NCBI GenBank assembly: GCA_031260345.1 | Contig: JAIRKA010000109.1 | Location: forward strand, 1-33,049 | Reading direction: 5' to 3' | Length of the DNA: 33,049 bases | From: Methanosarcinales archaeon | GTDB lineage: Archaea > Halobacteriota > Methanosarcinia > Methanosarcinales > Methanosarcinaceae | In this document: piece after piece, positions 9,981-29,074 of the stretch | Layout: each line of letters starts with the position of its first letter | Position numbering within the stretch: position 1 is the stretch's first letter | Notes under the pieces: model-generated | What the model was told of the DNA's origin: nothing | The model's database searches: none | The model's input: only the letters and a program-made list of their open reading frames with translations | Program-made: the position numbers and the translations under genes

Positions 9981-10535
9981 ATGAAAATTATCGGAATACT
10001 CGGAAGCGCTCGTGAAGGCGGAAGCACACGTTATTTAATTGAAGAAGTCATGAAAGAGCCGAAAGCAAAAGGCGCCGAGACAAAAATATACAATTTAGGA
10101 AAAATGGATATCCGATGCTGTCTCGGATGCGGAGTCTGCCGCAAAAAAGAAAGAGACTGTGTTCGAAAAGACGATATGCGCCTTCTTTATGAAGAAATGA
10201 AAACAGCCGACGCGATCATCATCGGAACGCCGATTTACATGGGCGAAATGACCGGGCAGTTAAAAACGTTCATTGACCGCTGTTTTGCTTTAAAAGATGC
10301 GCAGAGCAAGCCGCTGATTCCGGCAGGCAAAAAACTTGCGGTTGTCATTACACAGGGCGCGCCGATGCCGGATCATTACATCAAAACGCCTGACCGAATC
10401 GAATATATTTTCAAAGGACTCGGTTTCATTCCTATCGGGAGAATTACCGCCGTGAGCGTTCACAACACAGAAGAGCTTTTACAGAACAAAGACGTTTTGG
10501 AGCAAGCAAGAGAACTCGGCAAACAGTTATTATAA
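9981..10535 (+). CDS. Iron-sulfur flavoprotein / NADPH-dependent FMN reductase family
   Basis: IIGILGSAREGGSTRYLIEEVM FMN-binding loop; cysteine cluster CCLGCGVCRKKERDC; GTPIYMGEMTGQLKTFIDRC. Confidence 0.9.
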   Translation: MKIIGILGSAREGGSTRYLIEEVMKEPKAKGAETKIYNLGKMDIRCCLGCGVCRKKERDCVRKDDMRLLYEEMKTADAIIIGTPIYMGEMTGQLKTFIDRCFALKDAQSKPLIPAGKKLAVVITQGAPMPDHYIKTPDRIEYIFKGLGFIPIGRITAVSVHNTEELLQNKDVLEQARELGKQLL

Positions 10536-10594
10536 TATGCAAAAAGTTGTTCATATTCATTATATTTTCAATAATCCAAAAGAGCGAATCGATT

Positions 10595-11500
10595 ATGAAA
10601 GATTGCATGAGTCATGATATGCAGCGTAAAATTTCCAGACATCCCTGTTATTCTCCGGAAGCGCAGCATAAATTCGGGCGGCTGCATTTGGCTGTTGCGC
10701 CTTCCTGCAACATACAATGTAATTACTGCGATCGAAAATTTGACTGCGTCAATGAAAGCCGTCCGGGCGTGACAAGTGCTGTGCTGTCGCCGAAAGACGC
10801 AATGGAAAAGACCACTCTGATTCTGAAACAGCACCCGTACATCAGTGTCATCGGCGTTGCCGGCCCCGGAGACCCGCTTGACAATGACGAAACGTTTGAA
10901 ACCTTCCGCCTCATCCGCGAAAATTTCCCCGACATAACGCTTTGCATCAGCACAAACGGGCTTTTGCTTCCCGACAGATTTGATGAATTGGCGGCGTTAA
11001 ATGTGGAAACGCTGACCGTTACTTTGAATGCGACCGACCCCGAGATTCAAAAAGAAATCGTCAGCATGATTTATTACAACGGCAAAAAATACGAAGGACG
11101 AGAAGCGGCTGAAATTTTGATTCAAAATCAATTGGAAGGAATCCGAAAAGCCGTCGCTGCCGGAATAACCGTTAAAATCAATACGGTTCTGATTCCGGGA
11201 ATCAACGACAAGCATATCATTGAAATCGCAAAGAAGATGAATGAAATGGGCGTCTACATCATGAATATCATGCCGCTGATCAATCAAGCTGCGTTTAAAG
11301 ACATTATACCGCCGACGGACTTGGAAAGAAAAGCCGTTCAAGATGCTTGCGCGCCGTATGTCAAGCAGATGAGGCACTGCCGCCAATGCCGCTCGGACGC
11401 TTACGGTCTGCTGGGGGAAGATTTGTCGGTGGAAAAAAAGAAAAAGAAAGAAGATTGTGGCGGGGAATTAAAAATGATTTCTCTGAAAAGAGAGGAATGA
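10595..11500 (+). CDS. nifB: NifB-type radical SAM protein (stand-alone core form)
   Basis: HPCYSPEAQHKFGRLHLAVAPSCNIQCNYCDRKFDCVNESRPGVTSAVLSP with CxxxCxxC; GVAGPGDPLDN; CRQCRSDAYGLLGED. The ORF track starts at a TTG (10547); internal ATG at 10595 is more plausible. Confidence 0.88.
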   Translation: MKDCMSHDMQRKISRHPCYSPEAQHKFGRLHLAVAPSCNIQCNYCDRKFDCVNESRPGVTSAVLSPKDAMEKTTLILKQHPYISVIGVAGPGDPLDNDETFETFRLIRENFPDITLCISTNGLLLPDRFDELAALNVETLTVTLNATDPEIQKEIVSMIYYNGKKYEGREAAEILIQNQLEGIRKAVAAGITVKINTVLIPGINDKHIIEIAKKMNEMGVYIMNIMPLINQAAFKDIIPPTDLERKAVQDACAPYVKQMRHCRQCRSDAYGLLGEDLSVEKKKKKEDCGGELKMISLKREE

Positions 11501-14911: not shown

Positions 14912-15670
14912 ATGGAGTCTATGGCAATTCTTATTGTGATAGGGATACTGTCAAGTGTTTTTATTTTTGGATTAAAGACGGGGATTGGCTGCGGTTTTTC
15001 AAAAACCGGCAAAGGCACTGTGTTTGTTTTATGCCTTTTATACTTCGCGATCGCTCTTGTTGCGGGGTATTTCATGGATGTGCTTGACGTCACATCCTTT
15101 ATGGCTTCACCGTTAGCAACCGCGATTCATATTACGCTTGCTTTGTTCTTATTGATCGGCGGCATCGTCACAATGAAAAAGTGGCATGCCGGTTGTGATG
15201 TATCGAATAAAACCTTTTTAATCATGGTTTTTCCGTGCCCTGTCTGCATGGCGGCGCTTCTTGTCTCATGCATTGCGCTTTCGACTGTTGTTGACCTGAA
15301 CGGCCTTGTGATCGGCGCACTTGTCGGGGCCGTTTTCGCGATTTCAATATTGGTAACGACATATCTGATGAGAAATCTAAGCAAAGTCGCAAAGAAATTG
15401 AATATCGACTTTGACGGAACACCGGACACGCTCGGCGCGATTATGGTATTTATCGGTTTGTTCTATCTGATTGCCTCGATTATGATTCCGGCATACATCA
15501 GTTCAGGAAACGTCCAATCAACGGCAGTGAACGTGTTTGGTACAACCGAAATTGTTGTTTTAATTGGAATCTGCTTGCTTGTTTTGTTCGGTGCCCTTTT
15601 AACAATTACAGCTGACAAGTCGAGCAAGAAGGAAAAAAATTCCCGGAAAGGGAGATCGAATAATTTTTGA
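14912..15670 (+). CDS. DUF2162-like multi-TM membrane protein (putative transporter)
   Basis: Multiple hydrophobic segments; FPCPVCMAALLVSC motif; position just upstream of ExbB/DUF2149/CobN genes. Confidence 0.7.
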   Translation: MESMAILIVIGILSSVFIFGLKTGIGCGFSKTGKGTVFVLCLLYFAIALVAGYFMDVLDVTSFMASPLATAIHITLALFLLIGGIVTMKKWHAGCDVSNKTFLIMVFPCPVCMAALLVSCIALSTVVDLNGLVIGALVGAVFAISILVTTYLMRNLSKVAKKLNIDFDGTPDTLGAIMVFIGLFYLIASIMIPAYISSGNVQSTAVNVFGTTEIVVLIGICLLVLFGALLTITADKSSKKEKNSRKGRSNNF

Positions 15671-15748
15671 ATAAACTAAAAACGAACTGAAATAAAAAAC
15701 AAAATAATTTAGGGTAAAAATAATAAGAGGAGACAGTAGGGGAAAATT

Positions 15749-16414
15749 ATGGTAGAAATTGCATTTTTATCTGACTTCGGGTCAACAATGACATTTATTA
15801 CGTATGTTTTTTCAAATTCACTTTTGTATCCGGTCATGATATTGTTGCTCGTGTTTGCGCTTGTATCGCTGATCTTAACCGGTGAATTTATTACGGAATA
15901 CACACGCCGCAACAGAAATCAAAGAGAGCTGGAAAAGCAAACGTACCGCATCAGCGATATTATGAAGTCATCTCAGTCTTCTGATATCCGATACAAAGAA
16001 TCGGCGTCTATTCTCAGAAGTTTCGGCGGTAAACAGACTCAAATGGTTACCGCTTTTTCAAAAGATGCGGCAGATTCTGTTGAAGCGGGTGATTTGAGGC
16101 ACATTGAAAAAATCGCGGATGACTATGAAATTAGGATGACGAAAATAACAGAAAAGACAAGACTTATTACAACAATCGGCCCGATGCTCGGTTTGATGGC
16201 AACATTGATTCCGCTCGGCCCTGCTTTAATCGGTTTGACGGAAGGCAACATTGCCGCGCTTGCGACAAATCTTGTGATCGCGTTTACGACAACAGTTGTC
16301 GGTTTGTTTGCAGCATCCCTTTGTTTCGGTTTAACAACCATCCGCAACCGCTGGTATTGGCAGGATATGATTGATATTGATTACCTCATCGACGCCTTGG
16401 AGGAAAAGAAATGA
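15749..16414 (+). CDS. MotA/TolQ/ExbB-like proton channel family protein
   Basis: TM segments plus TRLITTIGPMLGLMATLIPLGPALIGLTEGNIAALATNLVIAFTTTVVGLFAASLCFGLTTIRNRWY, the ExbB/TolQ signature region. Confidence 0.9.
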   Translation: MVEIAFLSDFGSTMTFITYVFSNSLLYPVMILLLVFALVSLILTGEFITEYTRRNRNQRELEKQTYRISDIMKSSQSSDIRYKESASILRSFGGKQTQMVTAFSKDAADSVEAGDLRHIEKIADDYEIRMTKITEKTRLITTIGPMLGLMATLIPLGPALIGLTEGNIAALATNLVIAFTTTVVGLFAASLCFGLTTIRNRWYWQDMIDIDYLIDALEEKK

Positions 16415-16803
16415 GCAGAGCAACCAGAAGAGCTGTGCGCGGTTCAACATTTGCCCAAAATAATGCCGGGAACCCGATGAACAGCGTTGCGAATGTTTTT
16501 GACGTCGCAATGGTTTTCGCGGTCGCCTTGCTTGTTGCGCTTGTTATGTCATTCGGCATGAGCGAACTTTTAACGGAGCAGGATGTGACAATTGTCATAA
16601 ATCCGGGACAGGAAAACATGCAGATTATTCAAAAGACTGAGGACGGCATTGAAATCATGGAAATCAATGCTGAGCAGCAAATCGGCGGTGGTATCGGTGA
16701 TATCCTCGGAACGGCGTATCGGTTGGATGACGGGCGTGTGATATACGTCCCTGAAGGGAATAATACGATTGAACGCGCAAGCGCCCCGGCTGACAGCACA
16801 TAA
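16411..16803 (+). CDS. DUF2149-like single-TM protein with ExbD/TolR-like topology
   Basis: Overlaps the ExbB-like stop by 4 nt (ATGA). Short basic N-terminus, one TM (VFDVAMVFAVALLVALVMSFGM), soluble C-terminal domain. Confidence 0.75.
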   Translation: MSRATRRAVRGSTFAQNNAGNPMNSVANVFDVAMVFAVALLVALVMSFGMSELLTEQDVTIVINPGQENMQIIQKTEDGIEIMEINAEQQIGGGIGDILGTAYRLDDGRVIYVPEGNNTIERASAPADST

Positions 16804-16810
16804 TTAATGA

Positions 16811-16846
16811 CTGAAATGAAAATTAATTTTTCATTTCAGCTTTTTT
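16811..16846 (+). terminator. Intrinsic-type hairpin and T-tract after DUF2149
   Basis: CTGAAATGAAAA-TTAAT-TTTTCATTTCAG: perfect 12-bp stem followed by CTTTTTT. Confidence 0.75.
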
Positions 16847-16889
16847 GTGATTATTTTTTTTACATGATTTGAACCCAAAAAGATAATAA

Positions 16890-16920
16890 TTATTACCTAA
16901 ATATATGCATTTATTACCTA
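16890..16920. promoter_or_regulatory. Two identical 10-mers TTATTACCTA spaced exactly 21 bp, upstream of cobN
   Basis: TTATTACCTA at 16890-16899 and 16911-16920; AGGTAATA (opposite orientation) also at 14850-14857 upstream of the DUF2162 gene. Confidence 0.35.
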
Positions 16921-17044
16921 TTATAGCATTATAGAATTTAGAATTTGTTTACTTTTCTTGACAAGTGAATGATTCATATGTGGATAAAAGTCTACTTGAC
17001 TTGGTTTTAGCTTATTTTATGAATTAAAAAATAGGGATGATAAA

Positions 17045-20000
17045 ATGACTTCGTTAAAGAAATTCAGCATTTATTTTGTATTAATGCTGTTAATCACTTC
17101 AATGATTCCCGTTGCGATTGCAGACGGCGGCGAAGAGTTGGAGATAATAAAAGGAACAGATGGAAAAATCAATGTTCTGTATATCGGTTATGACACATTT
17201 TTCAATTTGCCGATAACAGAAGAAATGGCTTCTGATATGTATTATGGAGATGATTTCTCAATACATGTATTCGGACTTACTCGTTTTTCTACAGGCGTTG
17301 ATAACACCGCCGAATTTGAAAAATACGATTTGAATACATTTGATATAATAATTATCGACATGGTCATCGGCGAGCTTTCCGATTTTGAGGATGCGCTGAA
17401 AGCAGCACAAGAGAACGGAGCATTATTGGTTGCTTTTAATAATGGCAGATGGGATGGAACAGGAACTGATACACCCGAATTTTTTGACTTCAGAGATGCA
17501 GCCGAATTTACAATAAGCGACCGTCAATCCGAAGAAACGATTCGAGACTTTTTTGCGCTTCACGCAGATGCCGGTAACTACAGACCAAACGAAATACTTC
17601 ATCAGGCATATGCTGAAAATATTTTGATGTATCTTGCCAGAGTGAAAAGTGAAGATGACGCTTCAATCAGACAAATCACAGATAATTGGGAAAGAATAAA
17701 AATCGCATATGTCGGATTTTCAAATAACTTTGTTTGGGGTCTTTTAAACCAATACTCCTCATTTATGGAAGTGACGAATTTATTATGGTGGGGGCATGAA
17801 GAAGCGCTTGCAGAGTTCGGTCAAACCGGAGGTTTTGCGGACCAAGACATAATCATTTTAGACATGATGACTCTGACAGCCGTTAACAATGTTGATAATG
17901 CGATTTCTAACGAGAATTATAGATTAGAAACCCTTGCAGGAAAAGAAGGGACGCCGCACATAGTTTCGGTCAGAAGCGGAATGTTAGACTTCGCCCGCGA
18001 CATCCAACACCCCGAAGACCCGCTCGCAGTAGATGTTGTGATGACCGAGCAGCTTCTTGTTTTACTCGGCAGGGAACTCGGCGGAAAAGAGTTCGCCAAA
18101 AATTGGGAATTAGCGGCAGGGTTTTTGAGTTACGGAATATACCACCCCGATTTAGACCGAAAATATTTCGAAACATTGGACGAATATTTGGCAGCATATG
18201 AAACACCATGTGAGAGCAATCCTGAACGATATGTTTACGACGACAGAAATTTAACAGTCGGAATTTGGTTCCACCGCGACTATTTCGCGGGCGGAAATAA
18301 CGCGCGAGTCAATGTCATTAATGAATTAATTTGGGATTTGGAAAGTAAGGGAGCCAACGTTATCGCAGGATTTGACGTTTTCAGAGTTACGCATGACGAA
18401 GAAGGCAATCCGATCAATCCGATGCTGAAATACTATGCTCTTAACGGAGATCCAAATAGAATTCTGATCGATGTTGCCATTTCAATCAAAGACTTCGGCT
18501 TAAACGTTGATGATTATGAAAGAGGCGTTGAATGGCTGACTGAGTTAGACGTCTATGTTCTCAAAGCAATCATTTCGTCTGCGGATGGGGAAATTGATCA
18601 AATCCCGAGAGATATGCTTGTCTATTCAACCATTTCTCCGGCCAGAGACGGTATGAACGAATTCATTCTTCTCGGAAATAACGGCAACGTTTTTGAAGAA
18701 CAGGCAGACTGGCTGGCCAACCGTGCCATCGCCTGGGGATACTTGAGAAGAACGGAGAATCAAAACAAAAACGTCATCATCATGTACTACAACTACCCGC
18801 CGGGTAAAGCCCACATCGGCGCCAACTACCTCAACGTCCTGAGAAGTTTGGCAGGACCGGATTTGGATCTGTACCCAAACGCGGGAACCAATCAAGACGG
18901 CGTTCTCAGGGATTTGAGAAGAGCCGGATATACGGTTGAATTTGACTCATTGCCGATCAATATCGAAGACTTGAATGAAACATCTCTTATGGAATTGCTT
19001 TTCCAGCAGGGCATCAATGTCGGCGAATACGCGCCGGGTGTCTTGCATGGGATGGTGACTCAGCACGAAATGGGTACCCGAAGAAACGCCTCCGGCGCTC
19101 ATGATGATGACTGGTGGGGCGCAACTCTTGTACCCGTTGAAAAATATAAAGAATGGTTTGATGAAACATTTGTCAATGAAACTCTTCGAAATCAAGTCAT
19201 AGATTTATGGGGAACACCTTGGGACTACTCCATTTCAATGGCGGAATTGGCTGCCAATGATCAAAACACGATGATTTGGGAAAATGAATTCGGGCAGCGC
19301 TTCTTTGTGCTTCCGGCCATTCGTTTCGGAAATGTGTGGCTGATGCCGCAGCCGGCAAGAGCATCACAAACGGATGCTGCATTCTCCTATCACGGCGGCG
19401 ACATTCCGCCGACGCACCAGTACATTGCCTTCTATTTGTGGATGAATAATCATCACAAACCCGACGCGCTCATCAGTTTCGGAACTCACGGAACGCATGA
19501 ATGGCTTCCGGGAACACCGTATGGTTTAGCCGCAAAAGACGATTTCGGGCCGCTCCTCCTTCAGGATATCCCGAACATCTACCCGTACATTGTCGCCAAT
19601 GTCGGTGAAGGCTTGACCGCAAAATACCGCGGAAACGCGCTCATCATCAGTCACATGACGCCGCCGATGATTCGATCGAATTTGGATTCAAATGACAACC
19701 TGAGAGAATTGGAATTAGAAATTCAAGCGTTTTTCATCGGCAGAGCCGGATGGGGTACAGACACGATGGTTGAAAGGCAGGAACGTATCGTTGATGTGAT
19801 GTTTGATGCCAATATTCATAACATTATCGACATGAGAAGGCACCAAAGAGCAGTCAATCCGACAAATCCGAATGCCGTGACTGACGCTCAGCTCAAAGCC
19901 CATCTGAAAACACTTTCGCATGACAGATTTGCGATGTTTTTGAAAGATGAACTGTATGACTATGTCTCATCCATTATGGAAAATAATTTGCCTTTCGGCA

Positions 20001-22438
20001 TGCATGTTTTCGGTCAAAGCCCGACAGAAGTCCAAATTTCCGCAATGCTTCGAGCGATGTGGGGACTTCAATTTGATGATGTCCTTTTCGAAACGTATTA
20101 CGAAGAAGAGGGATTCATCGGTGTGCCGTACGAATCCGCCGGCAAAATACTCGACTTGGTCGCCGACTTATCAACAGTAACAACGGCCGACGAAATGATG
20201 AGCATTTTGAGAGCAGCATATCCGGGATACAGTGACGATAAGCATGAAGCCGTCGTTCAGTTTATTATTGGTCCGATTATGCATTTCGAAGGTGCCGCCG
20301 ATTCGAATGCAGTGATCAATGACTGGAAGAGAACGGGCGCATGGGAAGACTTGATTGATGAAATCATTTTCTCGTACTACTTCTATATGCAAAATCCGCC
20401 GGCGCGTTCGGTCATCAGCGGACAGATTGAAGAAGTCATAGAGTACTGCGTCAGCAGCGGAAAGCCTATCGATGCGGCTTTGCTTAACGAAGCTCTGTCC
20501 CATGTTTTCAGGACGCCATCTGTAATGAACACGGGTGTCATTGCCTATTTAACCGGATACGGCCGTTTGGATTACGCACAAAATCTCAGAGATTGCGGCG
20601 AAGAGGAAATAGCGGCATTGTTAAATGCTTTAAATGGCGGATTCGTTAGACCAAACGCCGGAAATGACCCGATTCAAAACCCGAACGCGATTCCGACCGG
20701 AACGAACTTCTACGGTATTGACCCGACAAAGTTCCCGACAAAGCACGCTTGGGAAGTCGGTAAATCATTGGCGCACCAATTGATGATTGACTACTATCTG
20801 AAGTACGGTGAATTCCCGAACACCGTCGCATTCTCAAGATTCGGTACTGAATTCATTCGCGATGAAGGTGCTTTGGAAGCGATGGCTTTGTACCTTCTCG
20901 GTGTTGAGCCCAGATGGGATGACAGAGGAAATGTTGATCATAGAAGTGTAACGGTCATTCCGCTCAGTGAATTGACAATAACATTTGTTGACGACAACGG
21001 TATTACACATACAATCGACCGTCCGAGGATTGACATCGTCTACATGACAGCTGGTATGAGGGATTCCTTTGGAGACAAATTGAGATTGCTCAATGTCGCT
21101 GTCAGAACGGTTTCAAACTTAGATGAGCCTGCCAACAGAAATTATGTTCGAACGAATACAAACGCGCTTAAAGCAGCCGGCTTAGGAGATATGGCTTATA
21201 TCAGAAGCTTTGCAGCTGCTCCCGGACAATATGATGTCGGAACCGGAAACTTCGTCAGCGCCAGCGGCTCTTGGGATGATCCGGCAGCAATTGTGGAAAT
21301 GTATTTGAGCAAGATGAGTTACGCCTACGGCGATGACAATAATTGGGGCGTCAATGCTCGAACCCTTCTGGAAGCGTTACTGAAGAATGTGGATGCATCT
21401 GTTCACTCAAAATCATCCAACTTGTATGACTCACTGGACAACGATGACTTCTTCCAGTATTTCGGCGCGCTGAACTTGGCCGTACAGCATCTGAGGCCGG
21501 ATGGAAAAATGCCTGAAATGTATGTTGCAGATACCAGAAATGTCGGACAAGGCTCCAGAAACACCGGAAATCTCGTTGGGATGAGGGAATACATAAATAA
21601 GGACTTAGAGTCGCGCTACCTCAATGAAGAGTGGATACGCGGCATGATGGAATCCGGATTCTCAGGATCAACGATGTTTGCGGAATTTGTCGACAATATG
21701 TTCGGCTGGGCCGTAACAACCGGTCTTATCAGCTTCGATAACTGGGAAAGAGTCTTTGAGATTTACGTCAATGATTCACTCAATTTGGGTATGAATCAAT
21801 ATTTCGAAAGGTATCCGTATACACTCCAATCAATTACGGGCAGAATGCTGGAAGCGATTCGAAAAGACTACTTAAGAGTCATGGCCGACCCAAGTCTCAG
21901 TCCTGAAGAACATCAGCGGCAGGTGGAGAAATTTGATGGGATGCTGCAGGCATTAGTGGAACAGCATATGCAATCTGTTGTTGACCATGGCGCTTCCTGT
22001 TGCCACCACACTTGCGGAAACCTCAGATTTACTGAGTTCATGTCAGGAGATTTGGCTGTATTGGGTGTTGATCCTGATCTTGTACAGCGGTTCTTGGATA
22101 TCATAAACGGTGTGCGCGAAGATCCCAATATGCCGCCGTCCGAATCAGCCCCAACCGGCGGAAGCGGTTTTGGAATGGCTACAACGGATGCAGGCACACC
22201 GGCTGAAGCTCAACAGACGCCTGATGCCGGAGCAGGATACGGAACAGAGACCGGACAAGCAGGAACACCCGCAGATACGGTGAGAGGATATGAAATGAGA
22301 ATCGTTGATACGATCTCCAATACAGTCAGAGATTTCATCAACAATCCGACATTTTCATCATCCAGCTTCATTGCAATCGCAATTGTCGTCCTTTTGGTCG
22401 GCGCGGTTTTCTTCGGATACAGAAGAAAAGGCATCTGA
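17045..22438 (+). CDS. cobN: Membrane-anchored, exported CobN-like (magnesium/cobalt chelatase large-subunit family) protein
   Basis: 1797 aa; signal peptide KKFSIYFVLMLLITSMIPVAIADG; CobN-type motifs (YNYPPGKAHIGANYLNVLRSL, DALISFGTHGTHEWLPGTPYGL, YVRTNTNALKAAGLGDMAYIRSFAAAPGQY, FQYFGALNLAVQHL); low-complexity linker, then C-terminal TM FIAIAIVVLLVGAVFFGYRRKGI. Confidence 0.9.
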   Translation: MTSLKKFSIYFVLMLLITSMIPVAIADGGEELEIIKGTDGKINVLYIGYDTFFNLPITEEMASDMYYGDDFSIHVFGLTRFSTGVDNTAEFEKYDLNTFDIIIIDMVIGELSDFEDALKAAQENGALLVAFNNGRWDGTGTDTPEFFDFRDAAEFTISDRQSEETIRDFFALHADAGNYRPNEILHQAYAENILMYLARVKSEDDASIRQITDNWERIKIAYVGFSNNFVWGLLNQYSSFMEVTNLLWWGHEEALAEFGQTGGFADQDIIILDMMTLTAVNNVDNAISNENYRLETLAGKEGTPHIVSVRSGMLDFARDIQHPEDPLAVDVVMTEQLLVLLGRELGGKEFAKNWELAAGFLSYGIYHPDLDRKYFETLDEYLAAYETPCESNPERYVYDDRNLTVGIWFHRDYFAGGNNARVNVINELIWDLESKGANVIAGFDVFRVTHDEEGNPINPMLKYYALNGDPNRILIDVAISIKDFGLNVDDYERGVEWLTELDVYVLKAIISSADGEIDQIPRDMLVYSTISPARDGMNEFILLGNNGNVFEEQADWLANRAIAWGYLRRTENQNKNVIIMYYNYPPGKAHIGANYLNVLRSLAGPDLDLYPNAGTNQDGVLRDLRRAGYTVEFDSLPINIEDLNETSLMELLFQQGINVGEYAPGVLHGMVTQHEMGTRRNASGAHDDDWWGATLVPVEKYKEWFDETFVNETLRNQVIDLWGTPWDYSISMAELAANDQNTMIWENEFGQRFFVLPAIRFGNVWLMPQPARASQTDAAFSYHGGDIPPTHQYIAFYLWMNNHHKPDALISFGTHGTHEWLPGTPYGLAAKDDFGPLLLQDIPNIYPYIVANVGEGLTAKYRGNALIISHMTPPMIRSNLDSNDNLRELELEIQAFFIGRAGWGTDTMVERQERIVDVMFDANIHNIIDMRRHQRAVNPTNPNAVTDAQLKAHLKTLSHDRFAMFLKDELYDYVSSIMENNLPFGMHVFGQSPTEVQISAMLRAMWGLQFDDVLFETYYEEEGFIGVPYESAGKILDLVADLSTVTTADEMMSILRAAYPGYSDDKHEAVVQFIIGPIMHFEGAADSNAVINDWKRTGAWEDLIDEIIFSYYFYMQNPPARSVISGQIEEVIEYCVSSGKPIDAALLNEALSHVFRTPSVMNTGVIAYLTGYGRLDYAQNLRDCGEEEIAALLNALNGGFVRPNAGNDPIQNPNAIPTGTNFYGIDPTKFPTKHAWEVGKSLAHQLMIDYYLKYGEFPNTVAFSRFGTEFIRDEGALEAMALYLLGVEPRWDDRGNVDHRSVTVIPLSELTITFVDDNGITHTIDRPRIDIVYMTAGMRDSFGDKLRLLNVAVRTVSNLDEPANRNYVRTNTNALKAAGLGDMAYIRSFAAAPGQYDVGTGNFVSASGSWDDPAAIVEMYLSKMSYAYGDDNNWGVNARTLLEALLKNVDASVHSKSSNLYDSLDNDDFFQYFGALNLAVQHLRPDGKMPEMYVADTRNVGQGSRNTGNLVGMREYINKDLESRYLNEEWIRGMMESGFSGSTMFAEFVDNMFGWAVTTGLISFDNWERVFEIYVNDSLNLGMNQYFERYPYTLQSITGRMLEAIRKDYLRVMADPSLSPEEHQRQVEKFDGMLQALVEQHMQSVVDHGASCCHHTCGNLRFTEFMSGDLAVLGVDPDLVQRFLDIINGVREDPNMPPSESAPTGGSGFGMATTDAGTPAEAQQTPDAGAGYGTETGQAGTPADTVRGYEMRIVDTISNTVRDFINNPTFSSSSFIAIAIVVLLVGAVFFGYRRKGI

Positions 22439-27268: not shown

Positions 27269-29074
27269 TTATTTGTTTGACCTTCTTCTGGAATACGCGC
27301 CGAGGCCGACAAGACCGAGGAGGGCCGCAATTGCAAGCAACATGCCGAAGCCCGGAATCACGAACTGCGGAGAGTCGTCAGATCCATTGCCTGATTGGTT
27401 GCTGTCATTTCCTGCGGGGGGTTCCGGCGGTATAGGAGGTACAGCGGTTTGTTGGTCTTCAGTCCAGATTTCCTGACCGTTTCCGAGTCTCTGAAGCTGA
27501 GATTCACCGTATGCGTTCTTAACCGTCAATGTGACGTTGTAGTGACCGGATCTCTGGTAGACATGTCTCGGGTTCTGCACGGTAGAGGTTTGGCCGTCAC
27601 CGAAGTCCCAGTGCCAGGAAGTCGGGTTGCCTGCTGAAAGGTCAGTGAACTGAACAGGGTGCGGTGCGACACCTGAGAGGACGTCAGCGCTGAAGTTGGC
27701 GCGCGGAGCGGTTCCGACTGTGATGTAGCGTTCCTTCGTTGCCGTGTTGTTGCCGAATTCATTTGTAACAGTTAACCTGACGGTGTAAGTACCTGCGGCA
27801 GTGTATGTGTGGTTGGGGTTTCTCTCAGTAGAAGTTCTGTTGTCGCCAAAGTCCCATCTGTACGTCAAGTTCTGACCCTGTGATCTGTCAGTAAACGAGA
27901 CATTCAGCGGGGAAACACCGCTTGTCGGTGTACCTGTGAAGTCCGCGACAGGAACTGCGCCGACACTGACGAAACCGGTCTTAAGGATAGAGTCCGTTGC
28001 GCCGCAGGGGTTCGTAACGGTCAAAGCGACTGTGTACGTTCCCGTTCTGTTGTAAACTTTGACAGGGTTTCTTTCAGTAGAAGTCGTACCGTCACCGAAG
28101 TTCCAAAGGTAACCGGAACCTGCGCCGGCTCCGACAGTCGCATCCGTAAAGTTGACTCTTAACGGAGCACTTCCCTGGTTGTTGGCTGCAGTAAAGTCTG
28201 CTTTAAGCGTGTCTGTGATTGACACGTTTCTCAAAGTGTAGTTGAATGTGCCGAAGTTATTGGACGCGGACATTGTCACGTTGTAAGTGCCTGCCGCGGC
28301 ATAGGTATGCGTCGGGTTTCTTTCGGTAGAAGTTCTGTTGTCGCCAAAGTCCCATCTGAAGGTGGTTCCTTCGGTAACATTTCCGTGTGTGGTAAAGACA
28401 ACCTGTTTAGAGTTGACCGTTCCGTTTGCAGTGAAGAAGACGTAAGGTGCCGTGCCGACATTGATGAAGGCTCTGGATGTCTTTGTGTCATTGCTGAATT
28501 CGTTTGAAACAGTTAAAGAAACATTGTAGGTTCCTGTCTGGTTGTAAACCTTCGTCGGGTTTCTTTCAGTGGAGGTTGTTCCGTCACCGAAATCCCAAAG
28601 GTATCTGGTCGGGTTTCCGCTGGAATTGTCCGTAAATCTGACAGAAAGCGGAGCCTGGCCTGCCGTGGTGTTTGCCGTGAAATCAGCAACAACGCCGCCG
28701 CCGACAAAGATGTAATTTGTCTTAGTCTCGGTTCTGTTTCCGAATGAGTTGGTAATTGTCAAAGAAACGGTGTAGTTTCCTTCTCTGGTGTAAGTGTGCG
28801 ATACATTGCCAACCCGATTGGAGGTTGTACCGTCACCGAAGTTCCAGAGATAGGTAAACTGCGCATCTGCGCCTCTGTAAGACAAGTCAGTGAACTGAAC
28901 GGTTAACGGTGCGACACCGCGGACGGGCTGGCCGGAGAAGTCCGGAGCGGGAAGCGCGCCCACATTAATATAACCGTCGTCAGCTAACGCCATCGATGTT
29001 AAGGAAAAAAGAAGACAAAGAGCAAAAATGCCCATTGCTGCTTTTTTCATATATTGCTTGGTTTTCATATGCAA
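27269..29074 (-). CDS. Multi-PKD-domain surface protein with PGF-CTERM-like sorting signal
   Basis: 601 aa; signal peptide; about six PKD repeats (W/D FGDGTTSTERNP...HTY...GTYxVxLTVTN); C-terminus VIPGFGMLLAIAALLGLVGLGAYSRRRSNK. Confidence 0.92.
   Translation of the reverse strand: MHMKTKQYMKKAAMGIFALCLLFSLTSMALADDGYINVGALPAPDFSGQPVRGVAPLTVQFTDLSYRGADAQFTYLWNFGDGTTSNRVGNVSHTYTREGNYTVSLTITNSFGNRTETKTNYIFVGGGVVADFTANTTAGQAPLSVRFTDNSSGNPTRYLWDFGDGTTSTERNPTKVYNQTGTYNVSLTVSNEFSNDTKTSRAFINVGTAPYVFFTANGTVNSKQVVFTTHGNVTEGTTFRWDFGDNRTSTERNPTHTYAAAGTYNVTMSASNNFGTFNYTLRNVSITDTLKADFTAANNQGSAPLRVNFTDATVGAGAGSGYLWNFGDGTTSTERNPVKVYNRTGTYTVALTVTNPCGATDSILKTGFVSVGAVPVADFTGTPTSGVSPLNVSFTDRSQGQNLTYRWDFGDNRTSTERNPNHTYTAAGTYTVRLTVTNEFGNNTATKERYITVGTAPRANFSADVLSGVAPHPVQFTDLSAGNPTSWHWDFGDGQTSTVQNPRHVYQRSGHYNVTLTVKNAYGESQLQRLGNGQEIWTEDQQTAVPPIPPEPPAGNDSNQSGNGSDDSPQFVIPGFGMLLAIAALLGLVGLGAYSRRRSNK

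Follow-up and report, generated by a model that had tools for sequence, protein, structure and literature searches.

HmuS of the Bacteroidota is a membrane-anchored, extracytoplasmic heme de-chelatase of the CobN family, for which cryo-electron microscopy structures are available (PDB 9d26, 9p4s; PMC12583661). It does not need ATP, comes to a halt after 1-2 turnovers when purified, and loses its activity through the His538Ala substitution (PMC12583661). The hmu operon also encodes HmuU, an ExbB protein, and HmuV, a DUF2149 protein (PMC10434189), which in the published view power the TonB-dependent receptor HmuR. According to the 2025 paper on HmuS, it is unclear what the homologues in archaea do, and no complete hmu operons are present there (PMC12583661). 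Here we describe a set of four genes in a Methanosarcinales archaeon (assembly GCA_031260345.1, contig JAIRKA010000109.1, positions 1 to 33,049; this whole stretch of 33,049 nucleotides is called the window) that encodes an HmuS-like protein, homologues of HmuU and HmuV, and a further membrane protein, DUF2162. In our opinion, there is about an even chance that they form an ion-motive-force-driven surface metal (de)chelatase of the HmuS-HmuU-HmuV kind, which serves cobalt acquisition.

All four open reading frames are intact and co-directional on the + strand, exactly where an earlier note, made from the sequence alone, had placed them, and their Pfam matches agree with its description. They encode DUF2162, a polytopic membrane protein of 252 amino acids (14912-15670; PF09930, E=1e-47), a channel subunit of the ExbB/TolQ/MotA family with 221 amino acids (15749-16414; PF01618, MotA_ExbB, 3.5e-7), a DUF2149 protein of 130 amino acids (16411-16803; PF09919, 2.1e-29) and an anchored extracytoplasmic CobN-family protein of 1797 amino acids, a member of subfamily A (17045-22438; PF02514, CobN-Mg_chel, 1.8e-225). 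The ExbB-like and DUF2149 genes share the 4 nt at 16411-16414, an overlap that had also been pointed out before. Since a methanogenesis marker 2 gene lies upstream of the set, the genome is that of a methanogen; the draft comprises 1.59 Mb at 76% completeness and contains a single PF02514 gene. We rejected a chance association, an artefact and a pseudogene: none of the four frames is broken, each is conserved, and many genera share this gene set with its topology.

This recurrence was followed in a sample of 119 genomes of the phylum, for which 113 gene neighbourhoods were read. PF02514 is found in 75 of the genomes and DUF2149 in 42. The archaeal CobNs split into two clean classes: 57 are anchored, and every one of them with two complete ends begins with a signal and has a helix at its C-terminus, while the 44 cytoplasmic ones are mostly 1150-1430 amino acids long and have neither signal nor C-terminal helix. 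DUF2149 is present in every genome with an anchored CobN (36/36, the 36th being G090); it occurs without one in six genomes, and 77 have neither (Fisher p about 1e-24, uncorrected for kinship). The same preference is seen in gene distance. Within 1.5 kb a DUF2149 gene accompanies 31 of the 57 anchored CobNs and none of the 44 cytoplasmic ones, and within 40 kb the figures are 43/57 and 1/44. The whole DUF2162-ExbB-DUF2149 triad stands at 38 of 54 DUF2149 loci. Hence the proposed tie between this kind of CobN and the ExbB/DUF2149 pair extends far beyond the window. In the CobN tree, which is rooted by midpoint only and leaves out ChlH and bacterial CobN, subfamily A (including the window protein), subfamily B, HmuS and the cytoplasmic CobNs form one group each, and a fully supported branch has A, B and HmuS together on one side. 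Anchored CobNs also occur in tandem arrays, with up to six per genome (G117) and one protein of 2284 amino acids. Five of the six in G117 follow one another downstream of a single motor operon (C1:306644-336847; L077, L129, L137, L131) and the sixth is elsewhere; in several genomes CobNs of subfamilies A and B are consecutive.

The window protein has exactly two hydrophobic segments by hydropathy, at residues ~7-29 and ~1767-1794. The former belongs to a predicted signal peptide, MTSLKKFSIYFVLMLLITSMIPVAIA-DG (17045-17125, +), which every homologue with complete ends also has, and the latter is a C-terminal transmembrane anchor followed by RRKGI (22343-22426, +), likewise the same in homologues. 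The earlier prediction that the body of the protein lies outside the membrane therefore gains support from the recurrence of both segments, and this arrangement is that of HmuS. Indeed, the best PDB match of the protein is HmuS itself (9d26, E=1.4e-93). The motor genes tell the same story: hidden Markov models built from the archaeal proteins find hmuU (~1e-53) and hmuV (~1e-40) as neighbours of hmuS at 12 loci from Bacteroidota, and the archaeal and Bacteroidota proteins have in common the motifs GLMGTLIPxGPA and RWY in ExbB and NLFD, NPG and YVP in DUF2149. Thus the note's remark that no functional characterisation of such a gene set was known has to be corrected, as the core is homologous to hmuS, hmuU and hmuV and HmuS has been characterised (PMC12583661; PDB 9d26/9p4s).

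The likeness does not extend to the whole active site. In an alignment of 113 sequences, the catalytic His815 of the window protein (FGTHG; 19487-19489, +) corresponds to HmuS His538 and Glu855 (19607-19609, +) to HmuS Glu577, and the equivalents of both are nearly universal; within the HFG(T/A)HG motif the first His is replaced by Ser here (SFGTHG) and kept in the other 8 members of subfamily A. However, HmuS His1209 and Glu1212 (LDHxxEF, within LSLDHxxEFMGG) are replaced by Asp1468 and Gln1471 in DNDDFFQY (21446-21457, +), and Asp takes the His1209 position in 9/9 sequences of subfamily A and 34/48 of subfamily B. In the head region, which aligns poorly, HmuS His254 faces a gap in the archaeal anchored sequences, and the Met79 column, occupied by M275 in the window protein, is not conserved across the group. 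Nor did we see the ~120-residue Met-rich insertion of HmuS, by what is a weak test (no anchored CobN of the archaea exceeds 9 Met in 60 residues, and HmuS has 9-15). Because His1209, Glu1212 and His254 are not kept and Met79 is not conserved, the archaeal enzyme, judged by its aligned residues, does not qualify as an HmuS under the criteria in the literature.

Shortly before the linker and the anchor, residues 1652-1659 form the motif CCHHTCGN (21998-22021, +), a signature of extracytoplasmic CobNs that is found at this place in 54 of the 57 anchored proteins and in 0/44 cytoplasmic ones. Its Cys pair aligns with Cys1371 and Cys1376 of HmuS (CSGFVCDN), residues which the main text of PMC12583661 does not discuss. 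The pair is kept in 11 of 12 HmuS sequences and the twelfth has lost both cysteines together, which suggests that they may be joined in a disulfide or bind one metal together. In general terms, C-x4-C[GD]N before a C-terminal transmembrane helix separates the extracytoplasmic enzymes from cytoplasmic CobN, two kinds that databases now mix; the NCBIfam equivalog model for cobaltochelatase CobN has a cut-off of 1619 bits, against a best score of 700 here. At L080 and L036 we observed two anchored CobN paralogues that carry CC-A/V-L-CC-GN in place of CCHHTCGN and stand beside motor genes of their own, perhaps hinting at a different metal.

The ExbB-like profile matches the TolQ/ExbB structures 9avi, 8vlw and 5sv0, and the invariant T152 (16202-16204) and T182 (16292-16294) align with T148 and T181 in the pore of E. 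coli ExbB. DUF2149 has one transmembrane helix, where Asp31 (16501-16503) is invariant, and a small extracytoplasmic domain, in which the NPG and YVP motifs are conserved in an alignment that includes the Bacteroidota. Both pore threonines and a one-helix partner with a conserved Asp are features of ExbB/ExbD, TolQ/TolR and MotA/MotB. Unlike in those systems, the partner here is not detectably an ExbD: a comparison of the DUF2149 profile with known structures found none. The structure model of DUF2149 is too poor for use (pLDDT 52), and a fold search with it found nothing. As no ExbD scores above cut-off in any of the 119 archaeal genomes, DUF2149 appears from these comparisons to be the substitute for it. 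A further difference is the absence of TonB and TolA, and the apparent client is a chelatase-family enzyme. The archaea considered here have no outer membrane; without that membrane and without ExbD, an archaeal ExbB-type motor must have a target other than a TonB receptor.

The ATPase partners of the cytoplasmic relatives are the other point of comparison. The archaeal protein resembles cytoplasmic CobN (of CobNST) and ChlH (of ChlHID) in its PF02514 membership, its body domains and the catalytic His, whereas those proteins are cytoplasmic, have neither anchor nor CCHHTCGN, work with AAA+ ATPase partners and insert metal. The earlier note had seen no AAA+ partner beside the window protein and had asked whether a separate cytoplasmic CobN with ChlI/ChlD exists elsewhere in the genome. 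The single PF02514 gene is the anchored one, and the search for a ChlD-type protein (TIGR02442, threshold E<1e-60) gave no more than a background match in this 76% complete genome. By the same search, 10 of the 19 genomes whose CobNs are all anchored lack a ChlD-type protein, six of these ten being single-contig assemblies; of the 56 genomes in which a CobN is cytoplasmic, a class to which some proteins were assigned by length alone, 3 lack it. Anchored CobN is therefore independent of the usual ATPase. ChlI and a separate ChlD-like gene, with no cytoplasmic CobN, were observed in G027, G034, G045, G050, G060, G080, G085, G113 and G117.

As for the metal, cobalt or corrin genes are adjacent to and co-directional with the set at ten loci (L044, L048, L049, L051, L187, L188, L190, L191, L192, L194), which belong to two other archaeal families. 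The gene order at L048 is DUF2162-ExbB-DUF2149-CobN-cbiM-cbiN-cbiQ-cbiO-cbiT-cbiL-cbiF-cbiG; at L049 and L187 CobN is followed by cbiT-cbiL-cbiF-cbiG-cbiH/C; at L190-L192 cbiM/Q/O genes flank the set on one side or on both, and at L044 cbiMNQO is upstream of it. Since these arrangements differ, the link to cobalt has been kept or remade repeatedly. The earlier note had spoken of a metal, tetrapyrrole or corrinoid role, and the neighbours in other archaea now narrow the metal and tetrapyrrole part of it to cobalt. Across the whole family, cobalt thus has the best support of any metal, and by way of these relatives it is also the likely metal of the window protein. In the cobalt-linked operons a gene for a Dph6-like ATP pyrophosphatase was seen directly 5' of DUF2162 (L048 11607-12308, L049, L187, L188, L190, L193).

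Taken as a mechanism, our hypothesis is as follows. The CobN-family enzyme would be secreted and stay tethered to the cell surface through its single C-terminal helix, and ion flow through the ExbB-type channel, which has DUF2149 as its partner instead of ExbD, would drive conformational cycling of the enzyme, thereby replacing the AAA+ ChlI/ChlD or CobS/CobT of the cytoplasmic relatives. An extracellular metallo-tetrapyrrole would bind in the cleft around His815 and the metal would most likely be removed there, after which separate transporters such as CbiMNQO could import the released cobalt. At the base of the anchor, the CCHHTCGN motif may hold or relay metal or act as a redox switch, and DUF2162 may be the membrane partner for product or electrons. 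That force reaches CobN at all, the direction of the reaction, the exact substrate, the roles of the Cys motif and DUF2162, and cobalt as the metal in this genome are what we infer from relatives and motifs. That HmuS does not need ATP and stalls after 1-2 turnovers once purified leaves room for a missing energiser, and since the view that the motor powers HmuR is inapplicable to archaea, the simplest function common to both groups is direct action on the chelatase. We are more hesitant about a stricter version, a tentative proposal that may well prove wrong: that ExbB/DUF2149 replaces the AAA+ proteins for a surface CobN that strips cobalt from extracellular corrinoids, and that HmuU/HmuV are coupled to HmuS in the same manner, rather than, or besides, to a TonB receptor.

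Several observations weigh against our hypothesis. Cobalt genes are found neither in the window nor at the loci of its own family, so that the linkage rests on two other families and on CobNs of subfamily B. Nine of the 19 genomes with only anchored CobNs do carry a remote ChlI/ChlD pair, and HmuS works in vitro without HmuU/V. ExbB-DUF2149 genes also adjoin S-layer, CARDB and periplasmic-binding proteins where there is no CobN, hence the motor may serve something else. To our knowledge, no enzyme takes cobalt out of a corrin. Two published proteomes point to other metals: in Methanothermobacter, a CobN1 and NikR1 are high only under nickel limitation (PMC12350162), and 'BtuS' of M. barkeri rises with Fe(II)/Cys and FeS2 (PMC10846266).

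The chemical difficulty of taking cobalt from a corrin is also an argument for corrinoid or tetrapyrrole uptake, in which the surface CobN would capture intact corrinoids or precursors and the motor would pass them to DUF2162 as a permease, with no metal removed. The linkage to the corrin-ring genes cbiT/L/F/G/H would fit, as would the long, variable proteins and tandem paralogues, which suit varied ligands. However, the Co2+ importer cbiMNQO and de novo synthesis are linked to the set just as much, the loci read showed neither btuCDF nor recognisable salvage genes, the catalytic His and Glu are nearly invariant and the permease role of DUF2162 is putative; we consider this explanation possible, yet doubtful. 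Nickel, taken from F430 breakdown products or Ni-porphyrins, is in our opinion unlikely. Methanogens need much nickel and CbiMNQO-type importers can carry it, and the Methanothermobacter response just mentioned points the same way; but that CobN1 may or may not be of the anchored kind, no nickel genes were recognised beside the set, and the linked Cbi enzymes are cobalamin-specific.

If the enzyme were instead an HmuS-like heme de-chelatase that supplies Fe(II) from heme for FeoB, one would understand why HmuS is its best structural relative, why the motor genes are homologous and why the iron source affects BtuS in M. barkeri. We regard this as very unlikely, given the replaced or missing residues described above and the neighbours, which in archaeal relatives are cobalt genes rather than heme or iron genes. 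Moreover, neither hmuY nor the TonB-dependent hmuR is in the window or was recognised in the neighbourhoods listed, DUF2162 stands in place of HmuT without clear homology, and the CobN gene comes last in the set, not first. Finally, the ExbB/DUF2149 pair might energise surface-layer and adhesion proteins in general, with CobN only a co-regulated metal-binding surface protein. The pairs beside S-layer, CARDB and Peripla_BP_2 proteins speak for it; such other clients favour a motor that works beyond the membrane and weaken the idea that it serves CobN exclusively. On the other hand, anchored CobN depends on DUF2149 in all 36 genomes and the pairing is also found in Bacteroidota, thus we find this an improbable account.

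The loci in question deserve description in their own right. In two genomes, at L045 (9856-13662) and L047 (9819-13684), ExbB-DUF2149 lies directly downstream of a gene for an S-layer protein of 873 amino acids, with no CobN, and an ion-driven motor acting on the S-layer is possible there. At L053 (2837-10269), L056 (963-10199) and L054 (1525-12021) the pair is beside giant surface proteins of 1966, 2660 and 1506 amino acids, respectively, with CARDB, PQQ propeller and NosD/beta-helix domains; Peripla_BP_2 proteins occur in L056 and L059 as well. It seems that the ExbB-DUF2149 motor has several kinds of surface client.

DUF2162, the member of the set without a recognised counterpart, has invariant K22, G26 and C109-P-x-C112 (15236-15247) and a near-invariant C27 (14990-14992) among 23-38 archaeal homologues. 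The PCPxC and GCG motifs brought to mind an electron conduit of the CcdA/DsbD type, which we rejected, as a profile comparison with 20 archaeal CcdA proteins gave a probability of 2%. The comparison with HmuT is marginal (20-35%), and the structure model, made from a single sequence, is too poor for use (pLDDT 51). DUF2162 would be a membrane partner that handles the product or electrons.

Our literature search returned no paper describing the archaeal gene set and no mention of DUF2162; DUF2149 does occur in the literature, including the hmu genes of Bacteroidota (PMC10434189). What is new is that an architecture like that of HmuS is combined with another active site, another third membrane protein and another metal context, in a host that lacks an outer membrane. 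Many methanogens and their relatives do hold the membrane core of chelatase, ExbB and DUF2149, in some lineages inside cobalt/B12 operons. Our hypothesis predicts a direct coupling of motor and chelatase, also in Bacteroides, and a cobalt route for methanogens.

No Rfam riboswitch was found in the window, a shared DtxR/NikR-like operator sought upstream of 40 DUF2162 genes gave nothing consistent, and the viral contigs searched held no relatives of the set. Elsewhere in the window, a surface protein with about six PKD domains is encoded at 27269-29074 (-), and a short NifB-like radical SAM protein of 317 amino acids (10547-11500, +) adjoins an FMN reductase (9981-10535).

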